Below, one piece after another: positions 42,477-49,030 of a stretch of DNA of 64,000 bases (position 1 is the first letter of the stretch; every line of letters begins with the position of its first letter). Source of the stretch: Halobellus rarus (lineage in GTDB: Archaea > Halobacteriota > Halobacteria > Halobacteriales > Haloferacaceae); contig NZ_JANHDI010000007.1 of assembly GCF_024494595.1 (NCBI RefSeq), forward strand, positions 124,001 to 188,000, given 5' to 3'. Made by a program: the position numbers and the translations under genes. Below the pieces are notes generated by a model. It was not told the origin of the DNA. It saw only the letters and a list, made by a program, of their open reading frames with translations, and did no database searches.

Positions 42477-43853
42477 TTACCGTTCGGCATCGCTTCCACT
42501 CCGAAACCGGGTTGCTGCTCCGTATCCGGCCGCGCCGGCGACTGTCCCGAGCGCCCCCGCCCCAACGAGGTGGATCGGCCGGATGCCGGACCGGACGCGG
42601 TCGAGGGTGCCGTCACCGTCCTCGGGAACCCCCAGGACGTACTCGTGAACCTCGCCCGGGCGGATTGTGGCCGTGCGCGTCTCGTCGACGATCGCCCCCT
42701 CGACGTCGGTGACCCTCGCCGCCAGTTCGTAGTCGGTGCGTCCGGCGCCGAACACACTGACGCGATAGCTTCCGGGGTCGACGCCGTACCGACTGCACAC
42801 CTGCGGATACTCGCCGCGCGACTCGTCGGTATGCGTTCCGCGAAGCCGTCTCACCCGCTCGCCGCCGGGATCGACGACGGCGAGTTCGACGTCCTCGCTC
42901 GAGGCGGCGACCAGCGCGAGCGGGAACAGCGACTCTCTGATCCGATCTCCGTCGACGGTGACGTGGTCCAACGGGCCCGGTCGCGTTCGGTCCGTGGAGG
43001 CTTCGATTCGGTCGTATCTGCTGTACACCATCCCCGTGTACGCCCCGTACGGTCGCATCGAGAGGGTCTCGTCGTCCCGATCGAAGCGCAGCTCCGGTCT
43101 GTTACGTCGGTACGTCGCGGCCGGACGGTTGGGATCGTAGATCGGAACCGTCACCCCGCCGGCGCGTTCCTCGAAACCGTACGCGAGGACCTGATGAGAG
43201 AGCCGCGTCTCGTTGAAGAGGATGACCGCAGCGGTGCCGAACCTCTCGATGACGTCTCGAACGTCGCGCAGGACCGCCGCCGTATCCAGCCAGTGGCGAT
43301 ACAGGAACACACGCCGTCCGAGGAAGGCGCGAAACCTGAGGAACTGATCGGCCTGTCTGTCCACGATCTCCTCGTACACAGGGGCCTCGGGGCGCTCGGT
43401 CGGGACCGTCGGGGCCTCGATTTCGCTCGCGAGACGGCGGTCCACGGGAATCGTCTCAGGGTTCTCGAAGTACCGCTGGGCGGTCAGGACCATCCCGTAG
43501 CAGTGCCCGTTCGTCCCCGCCCGCTGGACGACCGCCAGCCGGAGCTGTGCGGCTATCGAATCCAGGACCGTGCGCGGGAGTTCCGCGACGTCGAGTCCGA
43601 GCGCCGTGCGGGCCCGGTCTTCCCACGTCGTCCGGATCCGCGTTCGGATCTCCGATCGCGAGGGGCTCGGCGGCGTCTCGAAGTACTGGTCCTCCGACGA
43701 CCAGTTCCGGAATCCGTAGGCGTGCGCTGTGGGGTCGAAACCGCGGGAATCGGGTGCGCGCTGTGCCCTCGCGACGCCGGCGGCGCTCCCGGAAACCCCG
43801 GCCGCGGCGGCGAACGTGGACAACAGCCGACGCCGGGAGATTCCGCGATCCAT
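42477..43853 (-). CDS. Tat-exported protein with papain-like Cys/His/Asp pattern
   Basis: A 458-residue exported protein. Seen: a twin-arginine signal (SRRRLLSTFAAAAGVSG, residues 6-22), then Cys118 in GTNGHCYGM followed by a helix, His220 in SHQVLAYGF and Asp240/Asn242 in PIYDPN. This is the Cys-His-Asp/Asn order and spacing of papain-like or C39-like cysteine peptidases. A beta-rich domain follows (residues 300-425), and one C-terminal hydrophobic helix (residues 428-450). Known: papain-fold enzymes include peptidases, amidases and transglutaminases. Inferred: an extracytoplasmic, membrane-anchored enzyme folded before export. The substrate is unknown and the assignment rests on the motif pattern only. 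Confidence 0.7.
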   Translation of the reverse strand: MDRGISRRRLLSTFAAAAGVSGSAAGVARAQRAPDSRGFDPTAHAYGFRNWSSEDQYFETPPSPSRSEIRTRIRTTWEDRARTALGLDVAELPRTVLDSIAAQLRLAVVQRAGTNGHCYGMVLTAQRYFENPETIPVDRRLASEIEAPTVPTERPEAPVYEEIVDRQADQFLRFRAFLGRRVFLYRHWLDTAAVLRDVRDVIERFGTAAVILFNETRLSHQVLAYGFEERAGGVTVPIYDPNRPAATYRRNRPELRFDRDDETLSMRPYGAYTGMVYSRYDRIEASTDRTRPGPLDHVTVDGDRIRESLFPLALVAASSEDVELAVVDPGGERVRRLRGTHTDESRGEYPQVCSRYGVDPGSYRVSVFGAGRTDYELAARVTDVEGAIVDETRTATIRPGEVHEYVLGVPEDGDGTLDRVRSGIRPIHLVGAGALGTVAGAAGYGAATRFRSGSDAER

Positions 43854-44862: not shown

Positions 44863-47064
44863 TCACAGCAGCGCGAAGACCACGTACGTCGCGACCAGCA
44901 GGACCGTCGCGTGCTTCAGTCCGTCCGCGACGCTTCCCTCTCCTAACTGCCCGGCGACGAGCCCCGAACAGACGCCCTGGATCGCGGCGGTGTGGAAGAA
45001 CAGCAGTTCGTAGGCGTCGGTGTTGACCGACTGCAGCCCCCCGAGCACGCCGGCGTCGACGCCGCCGACGTCGCCGACCGCGCCGCCGGTCGACTGCCCC
45101 GCCGCCTCGATCGCCGGGATGAACGACACCGTCAGCGCGACGATGATCCCGAGGAAGACGAAGAAGGAGACGTAGATGACGACGAGGTAGGTGAGCATCT
45201 CCTGTCGCCGCTCGCGCTGGAGCCGCCGGGTCTCCTGGGCCTCGTCGGCCGCGATGTGGAGCACCGGACTGATGTCGCCGCTGGCGGCCATCGCGTTCCG
45301 AATGAGCGTCACCGCTCGGGACACTGTCGGCGCGTTCGTCCGCCGCTCCATCCTCGTGAGCGCGTCGCCGACGCTCGCGCCCCACTGGATGTCCCGCCAC
45401 ACGCGGGCGATCTCGTCTCCGAGCCGTCCGAGCTCGGCGTCGGAGAGCCGACCCAGCGAGCCGACGACGGTGACGCCGGCTTCGTTGATGCTCGCCATCC
45501 GGCTGAGGAAGTCGGGCATGTCCGCCTCGATCGAGCGGATCCGCTTCTTTTGTACCTCGTGTGCGGCGGCGACGCCGGCGAGGGCGAGTACCGTCGCGAG
45601 CACGATCGGACCGTCGACGACCGCGACCACGTCCGCGACCGCGGTGGCGGTTTCGGTCGACCCCTCGGTCAGTCGTCCGACCGCGTCCCGAGCGGCCCCG
45701 TCGATCGACAGCCAGATCAGGAGTAGTCCGACCGGTCCGGTAAGGAACAGCGAGTACGCTGGCGTCCGCAGGACCGTTTCGATCGGGTGCGAAAGTATCT
45801 CACGGAACGTGCCGATCCGGTCGTAGACCGCGAGTCGGGCCCGGTTTTCCACGTGGCTGTCCCGCTCGGGAGCCGCGCCGTACACGACTCCGCCGTCAGT
45901 CATCCCCGCCGCCTCACCGCCGTTGACGACCGACTGTGCGCCGCTCGCGTCGCTCTCGCTCCCCCTGTCCGACGCCAACCGCGGCTGCTCGCCGCCGTCC
46001 TGATTCGGGAGGTTCAGGCTCTCGGTCATGCTGTCGACGTAGACCACGAACCCGAACGTCGCCAGCGGAATCGCGACGTAGCTCACGAGGCGGACCAGGG
46101 TGAGCGTGCTCTGGATCACGAGCCCGATCACGACGAGGACGGTGATGAAAAACAGCGGCCCGGCGACGAGGACGGTCACGTACACCTCCGCGAACGTCGA
46201 GAGCAGGTCCAGATACTGCCGCTGCTGTGCCTGTGCCTCCTCCTGGAACCGCTCGTACTGATCCCGCAGGAACGCCGAGACGTTCTGCCCGGAGGAGAGG
46301 ACGCTCGCGAGGTTCTCGGTGAACTCCTCGAGGTTCTCGCTCGGCGTGCTGCTCGCGGTCTCCTGAAGGGCGGTCAGGATGTCGGTGCCGAACGCGTCCA
46401 TGTCACGGACGGCGATGCCGAGTTCGCGCGCCGCCTCGCCGTAGACGCCCTGGTTGCGAGAGAGCGTCCGCAGCACCTCCTGAAACGGGATCCCCGAGCG
46501 CGAGAGCGCGTAGACGAACGCCACCGTCCGCGGCAGCGTCGTGTCGATTTCGATCCCGCGCGTTCGCGCGCGCTGATCGAGATACTTCCAGCGAGCCCAG
46601 TAGGTCCCGAGGGCGAGTCCCGTTCCGACCGTCGCGCTGGCGACGAGCAGCAGGCCGAACAGTTGCAGCAGAGAGAGGTCAGGGACGTGGACGATCGCGG
46701 CGAGGAACTCCAGCGGCGTCGGGAGGAACGCGCGGATCTCACCGACGTCGACGGCGAGCGAGCGGAGGATCACCGCTCCCGCGTAGACGCCGTAGACGCT
46801 CCCGGCGATCCCGGCAACGCCGGCGATGAAGAGCGTCTGGGAGGCGAACACCCGGTGGCTCTCGCCGACGAACGCCGCGCGCATCCGCTCGCGCTGTCGG
46901 CGGCGGGTCGGACTGACCTCGGCGACGTACCGCCCGAAGATCGGTAGCGCGAGTCGGGAGACGAGCAACCGCGCGCGGCCGCTGACGGGGACGAGCGCGA
47001 TCGGCAGTGCCAGGATCGTCACGAGTAGCAGCGGCACGTAGCCGAGCAGTTCAACGGCTGCCAT
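44863..47064 (-). CDS. Second type II secretion F / TadC-like platform protein
   Basis: A 733-residue platform protein. Seen: N-terminal helix (residues 5-25), a basic loop, a helix pair (residues 70-170), and the first GspF-type domain (DTTLPRTVAFVYALSRSG near residue 200) with two helices at residues 320-370. The acidic loop SESDASGAQ comes next, then a second domain (DMPDFLSRMASINEAG) and three or four last helices. The start at 47064 overlaps the ATPase gene by 14 bases; the ATG at 47118 begins inside the ATPase's basic region and looks too early. Inferred: a complete ATPase/platform pair, but with no pilins in the vicinity. The gene ends 126 bases from the methyltransferase gene. Confidence 0.9.
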   Translation of the reverse strand: MAAVELLGYVPLLLVTILALPIALVPVSGRARLLVSRLALPIFGRYVAEVSPTRRRQRERMRAAFVGESHRVFASQTLFIAGVAGIAGSVYGVYAGAVILRSLAVDVGEIRAFLPTPLEFLAAIVHVPDLSLLQLFGLLLVASATVGTGLALGTYWARWKYLDQRARTRGIEIDTTLPRTVAFVYALSRSGIPFQEVLRTLSRNQGVYGEAARELGIAVRDMDAFGTDILTALQETASSTPSENLEEFTENLASVLSSGQNVSAFLRDQYERFQEEAQAQQRQYLDLLSTFAEVYVTVLVAGPLFFITVLVVIGLVIQSTLTLVRLVSYVAIPLATFGFVVYVDSMTESLNLPNQDGGEQPRLASDRGSESDASGAQSVVNGGEAAGMTDGGVVYGAAPERDSHVENRARLAVYDRIGTFREILSHPIETVLRTPAYSLFLTGPVGLLLIWLSIDGAARDAVGRLTEGSTETATAVADVVAVVDGPIVLATVLALAGVAAAHEVQKKRIRSIEADMPDFLSRMASINEAGVTVVGSLGRLSDAELGRLGDEIARVWRDIQWGASVGDALTRMERRTNAPTVSRAVTLIRNAMAASGDISPVLHIAADEAQETRRLQRERRQEMLTYLVVIYVSFFVFLGIIVALTVSFIPAIEAAGQSTGGAVGDVGGVDAGVLGGLQSVNTDAYELLFFHTAAIQGVCSGLVAGQLGEGSVADGLKHATVLLVATYVVFALL

Positions 47065-49030
47065 CGCCTCTGTCCCCCTCGACGTCGTCGGTCTTCGCCC
47101 TCGGACGTTCCTCGCCACTGTGGGTCCGGTCGGGTCCGTCGCCGCTGCTGCTGTCGTCGCTGGCGACGCTCTCGTCGCCCGACGCCTCGTCCTGCGCGGC
47201 TTCGAGCCGCTTCATCACGCGCTCGGGGTCGGCGTAGTACTCGTTGACGAGCGCGGTGAACCGTCGATAGTCGGTCGTCCCGAGTTCCGAGAGCAGTTCC
47301 AGGAACCGCTCTCGACGCTCTATCTCGCGTTTCCGCTCCGTTCGGCTCCACCCGCGATCCCGCTGGATCTCCTCGAGGAGGTTCGAATCGCTCCCCTCGA
47401 AGGTATCCGTCTCGGCGTTCCACCTGAACGTCCGGGAGTAGTCGAGTTCGCCGGTCCGCTGATCGATATCGCCGATCTCGCCGATCGTCTTCGAACGGCG
47501 GACGCGCTCGCCCTCGACGCGCGTCAGCGTCTGCACGCACAGGAGGTCCAGCGACTGGACCATCGCCCGCGGCACGTTGATCGGCTCGTTCTCCAAGCGA
47601 TTGATCACCGTCTCGATGCTGTCGGCGTGCATCGTCGAGAACGTCGTGTGGCCCGTGTTCATCGCCTGGAACAGCGTGACGGCCTCGTTCCCGCGAACCT
47701 CGCCGACGATGATGAACTCGGGGCGGTGCCTGAGGGCGGACCTGAGGAGGGCGTACATATCGATGTCGCTCCCCTCGTGAAGGCGCTCACGCGTGACCGA
47801 CGAGAGCCAGTTGTCGTGATACAGCGACAGCTCGCGGGTGTCCTCGATGGTCAGGACCTTCGCGCGCGGCGGGATGAACATCGAGACGGCGTTCATCGAC
47901 GTCGTCTTTCCCGAGGCGGTCCCGCCGGCGAAGATGAGGCTCTTGTTGTTCTCGATGCAGAGCCACAGGTAGGCCATCTCCTCGATCGAGAACGTCCCGT
48001 AGTCGATGAGGTCGATGGGCGTGAACGGCTCGTCGGCGTACTTTCGGATGGTGAACGCCGATCCCCGCGGGGTCACTTCCTCGCCGAGTGCGAGCTCGAC
48101 GCGCGAGCCGTCGGGGAGCGTCGTCCCGACGACGGGGTCACCGACGCTCACGTGCCGGCCGGACTCCTGGGCGAGGCGGATGACGAAGTCGTCGAGGTCG
48201 TCGGCGGCGTAGGCGACGTTCGTCTCGATGTCGGTGTACTCGTCGTGGTAGACGAAAATCGGGAGGTCGTAGCCGTCACAGGAGATGTCCTCGATGTGCG
48301 GGTCGTGCATCAGCGGATCGATGCGGTCGAACCCGCGGAAGTCGCGGGCGAGGTAGTACAAGAGCGCGTGGAACGTCCGCATCGGGACGTCGACGCCGTA
48401 CTGCTCGAGCAGGCTCCGGAGCTCCCGTCTGAGCGTCTCTTCTGCGGTCGGTTCCGTGTTGGTCTGGTACAAGAGCGGGTCGCGGATGTCGACCCTGGCC
48501 CGCGAGAGGAGGTCGGCCTCGAACTCGTCGAGTTCGGGCTCGACCGCGTAGTAGTAGTGTTCGCTCTCCTCGTCGTCGTAGGTGATCACGACGTAGGCGT
48601 ACGGCGCGTTCACCCAGTAGCGATCGACGAGCTCCTCGCCGTCCGGCACCTCGAACTCGGCGAAGACGCCGTCGCCGGGTCGGTACGGCCGGACGTCGAT
48701 CGAGGAGCCTCGGAGGACCTCGATCGCGCGACGGATTCGCCGCCTGAGGCGATCGATCGTGTCTCCGTCGCCGTTCATCTCGTCCGTCCCGTCGCTTGCC
48801 CGGTCGTCGGAGGGATCGCCCGTCCCGTCGGGGGCGTCCCTCTCCCTGTCGGCACCCTCGCCTGTGTTCGCCGCGTCGGCGGCGACGCCGCCGTCGGCGG
48901 TCGCCGTCCCATCGGTCGACTCGGCGGCTGTCTCATCGGACGACTCGGCGGCCGTCTCGTCGGCCGACGCGGCCGCCGCTCCGTCTCCCGATGTCCCCCC
49001 CGTCTTCGGCTCGGAATTCGGCTCCCCCAT
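47051..49030 (-). CDS. Second type II/IV secretion ATPase (PilB/TadA-like)
   Basis: A 659-residue pilus-type ATPase. Seen: an acidic Ser/Ala/Asp-rich disordered head (residues 1-95), a YRPGDGVFAEFEVPDGEEL N-domain, SCDGYDLPIFVYHDEYTDIE near residue 248, Walker A GGTASGKTTSMNAVS near residue 366, Asp box IEDTRELSLYHDNW, Walker B FIIVGEVRGNE near residue 440 and MNTGHTTFSTMHADS. The fold matches the 1289-residue ATPase but lacks its acidic tail. Known: it drives pilin polymerisation or secretion from the cytoplasmic face. It is translationally coupled with the downstream platform gene. Its pilins must be elsewhere in the genome, perhaps including the PilA-type gene at the right edge. Confidence 0.92.
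   Translation of the reverse strand: MGEPNSEPKTGGTSGDGAAAASADETAAESSDETAAESTDGTATADGGVAADAANTGEGADRERDAPDGTGDPSDDRASDGTDEMNGDGDTIDRLRRRIRRAIEVLRGSSIDVRPYRPGDGVFAEFEVPDGEELVDRYWVNAPYAYVVITYDDEESEHYYYAVEPELDEFEADLLSRARVDIRDPLLYQTNTEPTAEETLRRELRSLLEQYGVDVPMRTFHALLYYLARDFRGFDRIDPLMHDPHIEDISCDGYDLPIFVYHDEYTDIETNVAYAADDLDDFVIRLAQESGRHVSVGDPVVGTTLPDGSRVELALGEEVTPRGSAFTIRKYADEPFTPIDLIDYGTFSIEEMAYLWLCIENNKSLIFAGGTASGKTTSMNAVSMFIPPRAKVLTIEDTRELSLYHDNWLSSVTRERLHEGSDIDMYALLRSALRHRPEFIIVGEVRGNEAVTLFQAMNTGHTTFSTMHADSIETVINRLENEPINVPRAMVQSLDLLCVQTLTRVEGERVRRSKTIGEIGDIDQRTGELDYSRTFRWNAETDTFEGSDSNLLEEIQRDRGWSRTERKREIERRERFLELLSELGTTDYRRFTALVNEYYADPERVMKRLEAAQDEASGDESVASDDSSSGDGPDRTHSGEERPRAKTDDVEGDRGDGSR

Follow-up and report, generated by a model that had tools for sequence, protein, structure and literature searches.

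The window, which is the whole 64,000-nucleotide stretch of the Halobellus rarus genome that was analysed, carries on its reverse strand an uninterrupted open reading frame of 458 amino acids plus stop (42477..43853), predicted from its sequence to encode an exported papain-fold protein and flanked by Methyltransf_11 and Pyr_redox_2 genes. All features of this frame given below lie on the same, reverse strand. A putative Tat signal peptide (residues 1-31, 43761..43853) contains the twin arginine (residues 7-8, 43830..43835) in the context SRRRLL, reads ISRRRLLSTFAAAAG...VARA-Q, and has an AxA-like end, ARA-Q, at the putative cleavage site. The papain-fold core (residues 36-300, 42954..43748), supported by an AF2 model of the core, VIA-align rows and alignment A3, includes a GFGFxN-type motif at residues 45-50. 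The probable nucleophile, Cys118 (TGC, 43500..43502), opens helix 118-130, the probable general base, His220 (CAT, 43194..43196), lies on strand 218-224, and Asp240-Pro-Asn242 (43128..43136) follows strand 233-239, with Asp240 (GAT, 43134-43136) as the probable third catalytic residue and Asn242 encoded by AAC (43128-43130). Beyond the core are an Ig-like beta-sandwich domain assigned by the AF2 model and VIA-align (residues 303-424, 42582..42947) and an uncharged C-terminal stretch (residues 429-448, 42510..42569) followed by RFR, which probably anchors the protein in the membrane and leaves its tail on the inner side. The protein is encoded by a single frame with no ABC exporter fusion, and its only cysteines are 118 and 353. 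An earlier note on this DNA had assigned the frame and pointed to Cys118, His220 and Asp240/Asn242 as candidate active-site residues, and inspection of the sequence confirmed the frame, its length and strand, and the placement of these residues.

Relatives were collected by tblastn (E ≤ 0.01), which gave matches in 50 of the 391 sampled genomes of the class. The main alignment comprised 44 rows including the window protein, six matches having been left out, three of them distant lectin-fused forms (G071, G208 and G279) and the other three short or unusual (G114, G129 and G188). Identity to the window protein falls to about 27% within these rows, and residues R7, R8, F39, P41, G47, F48, N50, G116, C118, G120, Q126, Q170, R180, A208, H220, L223, Y239, P241 and N242 are invariant (44/44), while D240 is kept in 39 of 44. 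Since seven probable signal and active-site residues (R7, R8, C118, H220, Y239, P241 and N242) are conserved in 44/44 rows and D240 in 39/44 at identities down to about 27%, the pattern is beyond chance. In A2, a separate set of 21 rows in which some genomes overlap with the main alignment, C118, Q170, H220, Y239 and P241 were again invariant, and Q126, D240 and N242 each varied in one or two rows, including D240 to Asn in L079 and L082 and N242 to Thr in L088; R7/R8 were unaligned in L087, a fusion with a cut fragment. In papain and C39 enzymes, a glutamine upstream of the cysteine usually serves as the oxyanion residue. Neither the 44-row alignment nor A3 contained an invariant glutamine upstream of Cys118, and thus the usual papain/C39 oxyanion residue was not found in these alignments.

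Structure prediction, which the earlier note had proposed as a check, was carried out with AF2 for the full-length protein (with 21 aligned rows; mean pLDDT 80.5, pTM 0.78) and for the core alone (m37f9022c66d0; mean pLDDT 82.7, pTM 0.82), the two runs using overlapping alignments and therefore not being independent. In both models Cys118 opens a helix, His220 lies on a strand and Asp240 stands just past the next strand; in the core model the equivalent of Cys118 is residue 83, the first of helix 83-95. The predicted secondary structure thus sets Cys118, His220 and Asp240 at the positions that they occupy in papain-fold enzymes of the clan CA type. At E ≤ 0.001 there was no match, either in Foldseek searches of the PDB with the whole model and with the core or in a search of BFVD with the core.

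A second look at the Foldseek top 1000 for the core was taken with VIA-align, which aligned 998 of them. All 50 rows listed appear to be papain-fold proteins, by title or by known classification, with Z values of 5.7-8.1, where Z 6-8 is the range in which the tool warns of a merely common arrangement. The top row listed was a T6SS effector (Z 8.1), followed among others by staphopain (Z 7.4, 131 aligned residues, 3.5 A), the C39 domain of PCAT1 (7.2), IdeS/Mac-1 (6.8), cathepsin K (6.7), the C39-like peptidase 3erv (6.2), ComA (6.1) and CtaG (9qvj, 6.1), differences under 1 counting as ties and the absence of a fold family from such lists excluding nothing. A papain-like toxin, 9l5u, was also among the rows listed, and the T6SS effector, CtaG and the CDI toxins are classed as papain-like. 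The argument for the papain fold comes from the uniformity of the rows, because the single Z values are moderate. The invariant residues, the two AF2 models and the VIA-align rows together upheld the claim of a papain-like core, and the contrary outcome named in the earlier note, a fold without such a core, did not appear in the models.

No family model for the window protein was found in Pfam (up to E 10), NCBIfam, PHROGs or PADLOC, and neither PF13529 (Peptidase_C39_2) nor PF14399 (BtrH_N) matched the window protein or anything in the window genome. Assignment to C39_2 or BtrH_N by profile comparison was also rejected, with hhalign probabilities of 0.8% and 0.5% against sets of three and four proteins, which are small sets compared with no positive control between known papain families. 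Profile matches in the PDB to LINE-1 endonuclease and a Ufm1-specific protease (E 0.13-1) and a phmmer match in the PDB at E 0.092 were taken as chance. The window protein is therefore of papain-like kind but outside every family model tested, and the description "C39-like" in the earlier note stands for the type of fold but not for the family, for which there was neither a PF13529 match nor profile similarity. No publication on this family was found in the open-licence PMC literature.

The known systems nearest to the window protein each share part of its organisation. Peptidase_C39_2 proteins and the C39 domains of PCAT1 and ComA have in common with it the predicted fold, the Cys-His-Asp order and an Asp-Pro after the strand, but the C39 domains of ABC exporters are fused to the exporter, whereas the window protein has a Tat signal and a probable C-terminal anchor and no fusion. 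Staphopain and papain/cathepsins have the predicted core fold in common with it (VIA-align Z about 6-7.4) but gave no convincing PDB sequence match by phmmer or profile search, and, in contrast to papain/cathepsins, no propeptide was recognised in the window protein and there is no invariant upstream glutamine. The alignments to IdeS/Mac-1 over the core are long (168 residues at Z 6.8 in 2avw, and up to 173 in IdeC), but identity is 5%. IdeS/Mac-1 is secreted and unanchored. One paper describes the BtrH_N acyltransferase domain as a papain-like relative of C39 (PMC10318531); apart from the papain-like character, the window family had no profile similarity to four true BtrH_N members.

The twin-arginine signal claimed in the earlier note holds on the aligned sequences, in which RR is invariant in 44/44 haloarchaeal rows and forms part of a short signal with a hydrophobic region, a feature of Tat substrates. 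No lipobox cysteine is present in the signal, since the sole cysteines are 118 and 353, and a match to the NCBIfam model formate_TAT (E 0.037, far below cut-off) falls on the signal. PMC2910488 presents Tat as the predominant secretion route of halophilic archaea and says that proteins combining a class I signal with a transmembrane helix at the C-terminus are embedded at that end.

The 44 rows split into 29 long forms, among which L029, with a CYGL spelling, was counted, and 15 short forms. In 28 of the 29 long forms, the final 45 residues contain an uncharged run at least 16 residues long, compared with 125 of 5800 random internal 45-mers from the same proteins; the exception, L024, has an earlier stop. 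These runs are rich in Ala and Gly, and R or K occurs within 8 residues past the run in 27/29. Averaged over 19 residues, the hydropathy comes to 1.27 for the window protein, and of the 29 long forms only 4 reach at least 1.6 and 24 at least 1.0. The C-terminal anchor proposed earlier is likely in view of the near-universal uncharged run, but the hydropathy is low, and the C-terminal helix was poorly modelled by AF2, with low confidence, and did not by itself serve as evidence for the anchor; the stretch is probably a membrane anchor, and a weakly hydrophobic one here. The beta-sandwich that precedes it had as its best VIA-align rows the DUF4425 protein 4qey (Z 7.6) and the TerD-like protein 3ibz (Z 6.4). 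The 15 short forms, all of family f4, end after the core and have no C-terminal stretch; their signals are without an obvious AxA end and, as far as the printed sequences indicate, may stay uncleaved.

The gene is present in 3 of 13 sampled genomes of the same genus, the window genome being 3.66 Mb in size. In the three carriers it lies between the methyltransferase and the pyridine-nucleotide reductase, whereas among the ten non-carriers the methyltransferase is upstream of the reductase in 8/10, with a gap of 85-205 bp in the seven that were measured; no methyltransferase was found at the non-carrier loci L118 and L119. The gene is therefore accessory, having been gained or lost at the methyltransferase/reductase site. 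The clade containing the window protein draws its members from families f1, f3 and f4 and has starred support (100/100); the mixture is consistent with transfer between families but is no proof of it. When genome contigs were scanned with one peptide pattern, 45 stretches matched, 21 of which were confirmed, all with haloarchaeal titles save one named only Euryarchaeota; one of the 21 (L083) spans two reading frames and was not used, and such a single narrow pattern cannot establish absence elsewhere. Six plasmid records matched, all haloarchaeal and all annotated "hypothetical protein".

No operon partner conserved across genera was found in the neighbourhoods of 18 long-form/fusion loci. Eight of the ten short-form loci lie in a common region, away from the methyltransferase/reductase site, that includes a large protein of about 900-1000 aa, and most of these eight also share dehydrogenase-like and MBL-like proteins (named by eye), while L043 and L044 sit elsewhere; these neighbours were read as inherited position rather than as partners. 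An ABC exporter adjoins or lies near the gene in several Haloferacaceae, and one adjoins the lectin-fused genes of L046/L047 (L062:8366-10273, minus strand; L081:7403-9313, minus; L059:4422-6368, plus; L046:6831-8159, plus). The exporter was set aside as a partner because inherited synteny explains the proximity equally well.

Relatives with other architectures were found beyond the long and short forms. Comparison by hhalign of A3 with A4, a lectin-fused set of five rows, gave a probability of 98.6% (reversed control 0.8%), and that of A3 with A5, three rows from other classes of the phylum, gave 98.8% at E 7.3e-17 in a single comparison (reversed control 0.1%), while an unrelated control against A3 gave 0.1%. 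The A3 profile matched in 14 of 392 sampled genomes of the phylum (E ≤ 0.01), nine of the 14 being related only at phylum level. Among these wider kin, the proteins of L100, L104 and L105, about 275 aa long, are made up of an N-terminal hydrophobic signal, the core and a hydrophobic helix at the C-terminus, the stop-to-stop frame of L100 having RR well upstream of the likely start. The proteins of L098 and L099 are about 1000 aa long, that of L099 matching CARDB at a score below cut-off, and L107 has a PKD domain and dockerin repeats just below cut-off. L107 also scores above cut-off with PF13529 in the half that contains His and Asp (29.7 bits against a cut-off of 24), and hhalign of A3 against L107 alone gave 70.5% over 33 columns. 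No core could be read in the printed sequences of L102, L103 and L106. Letters corresponding to C, H and YDPN recur in L098, L099, L100, L104, L105 and L107 and in the five A4 rows. A distant relative in Microvirga (L091) departs from this, its annotated CDS starting past the Cys region and reading YDSN. On these sequence patterns, a putative unnamed superfamily with the signature [GF.F.N]-[G.C.GM]-[H]-[YDPN] is recognised in this analysis, in whose other members lectins, weak CARDB matches, PKD domains or non-Tat signals replace the Tat signal and beta-sandwich of the window protein.

Several of the fused relatives are large. Haloarchaeal proteins with H-type-lectin-like repeats and a C-terminal CGGM papain-like domain are encoded at L046:3902-6379 (minus strand), L047:1760-4237 (plus), L045:3863-6988 (minus) and L092:2736-5681 (plus); the H_lectin model matched above cut-off only in L092 and below it in L045 and L046. 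In Paraburkholderia caribensis, a protein of 1114 aa (L090:3450-6794, plus) has beta-propeller lectin repeats flanking the domain on both sides (beta_propeller_lectin NF052348, 386 bits), at a position where PLSDB lists no gene. In a MAG protein of 1020 aa (L087:4228-7287, plus), FG-GAP_2 repeats are fused to the core, to another region towards the C-terminus and to a hydrophobic segment at the C-terminus. Two IMG/VR contigs each encode a 444-aa protein with a papain-like domain of the distant CGGM type (L122:2386-3720 and L123:2377-3711, both plus); the two proteins closely resemble each other, their N-terminal part was not recognised and they had no Pfam match. Among viral contigs, 0 of 44 pattern matches were confirmed and no relative was confirmed with A1 or A5, and no relative was matched in phage records.

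Taken with the invariant residues, the fold makes papain-type chemistry at Cys118 the natural reading. We propose, with middling confidence, that the window protein is an extracytoplasmic and probably membrane-tethered papain-fold cysteine enzyme, most likely a surface peptidase; the data show its sequence, conservation, predicted fold, family and the pattern of the anchor, and from these we infer export, topology and catalysis, and peptidase rather than transferase chemistry. The protein would fold in the cytoplasm and then exit via the Tat pathway, and the C-terminal helix would hold it on the outer face of the membrane, with the beta-sandwich placed between this anchor and the catalytic core. 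His220, oriented by Asp240, would activate Cys118, which would attack the carbonyl carbon of a protein or peptide near the membrane, the most likely outcome being peptide bond hydrolysis. Papain folds also include transferases, and hydrolysis is only tentatively favoured over transfer, because most of the fold neighbours are peptidases. An envelope cysteine enzyme with an invariant site and no family model would offer a concrete target for asking whether enzymes of papain fold shape the surface of archaea.

The same Cys-His-Asp site might instead form an acyl-enzyme that passes its acyl group to an amine and so cross-links or modifies envelope glycoproteins or peptides, in the manner of a surface acyltransferase or transglutaminase, a reading that we consider possible but clearly less probable. 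CtaG, which forms amides, is among the VIA-align rows for the core, and the lectin-fused L045 matches BtrH_N weakly in the vicinity of its C-terminal His-Asp region (E 0.2, below cut-off), but the four true BtrH_N proteins had no profile similarity to the window family and no match to the BtrH_N model was found in the window genome. Factor XIII, which has a papain-fold core with beta-sandwich domains, appears among the VIA-align rows for the whole model. Its alignments fall largely on the beta-sandwich, however, and where transglutaminase 2 is aligned across the core the rmsd is about 13 A, so that neither carries much weight. Against the core, peptidases reach the higher Z values, though differences under 1 are ties.

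That the papain domain is an effector aimed at neighbouring cells, either displayed on the surface or released from it, as might hold for the lectin-fused kin, is improbable for the window protein, which is without a lectin or repeat and probably has its own anchor. An antagonistic or adhesin-type module of this kind would fit the fusion of relatives with H-type lectin repeats (P0005, a haloarchaeal lectin-fused relative with H_lectin at 29.3 bits), with a beta-propeller lectin (L090) and with FG-GAP repeats (P0002, in which these repeats are joined to the papain-type domain), as well as the patchy presence of the gene and the toxin 9l5u in the VIA-align list; PMC3482391 reports clades of papain-like toxins, and also rare polymorphic toxins in haloarchaea. 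However, no recurrent small partner gene was found at the 18 long-form/fusion and 10 short-form loci among ORFs of at least 90 aa, and PADLOC gave no match. Retention of the fold as a non-catalytic module that binds peptides or glycans is the least probable of these readings and very doubtful. It agrees with the absence of the invariant upstream glutamine but is opposed by the conservation of Cys and His in 44/44 rows and of Asp in 39/44, and by the corresponding letters kept in six wider relatives and the five A4 rows, L091 excepted. A part in halocin processing was set aside, the only paper found on the subject (PMC12893001) reportedly dealing with a serine protease.

Beyond the surface peptidase reading, it is conceivable, though rather unlikely, that the window protein represents one branch of an undescribed archaeal and bacterial superfamily of papain-fold surface enzymes that remodel or cross-link surface glycoproteins and are held outside the membrane by varied means. 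These means would be, just as tentatively, a Tat signal combined with a helix at the C-terminus, a Tat signal that may stay uncleaved, a non-Tat signal combined with such a helix, and lectin or repeat fusions. The family joins lectin-fused proteins that are unannotated to archaeal anchored ones. Processing at the haloarchaeal surface is mostly discussed in terms of archaeosortases, signal peptidases and serine proteases, and, if the superfamily reading is true, there would be a layer of cysteine enzymes in archaeal envelopes, none of which was found described in open-licence PMC literature.

In the window itself, genes for a PilB3-type ATPase and a T2SSF-type platform protein of an archaeal type IV pilus (44866-49030, minus strand) lie directly upstream of the methyltransferase and papain-like genes and on the same strand.
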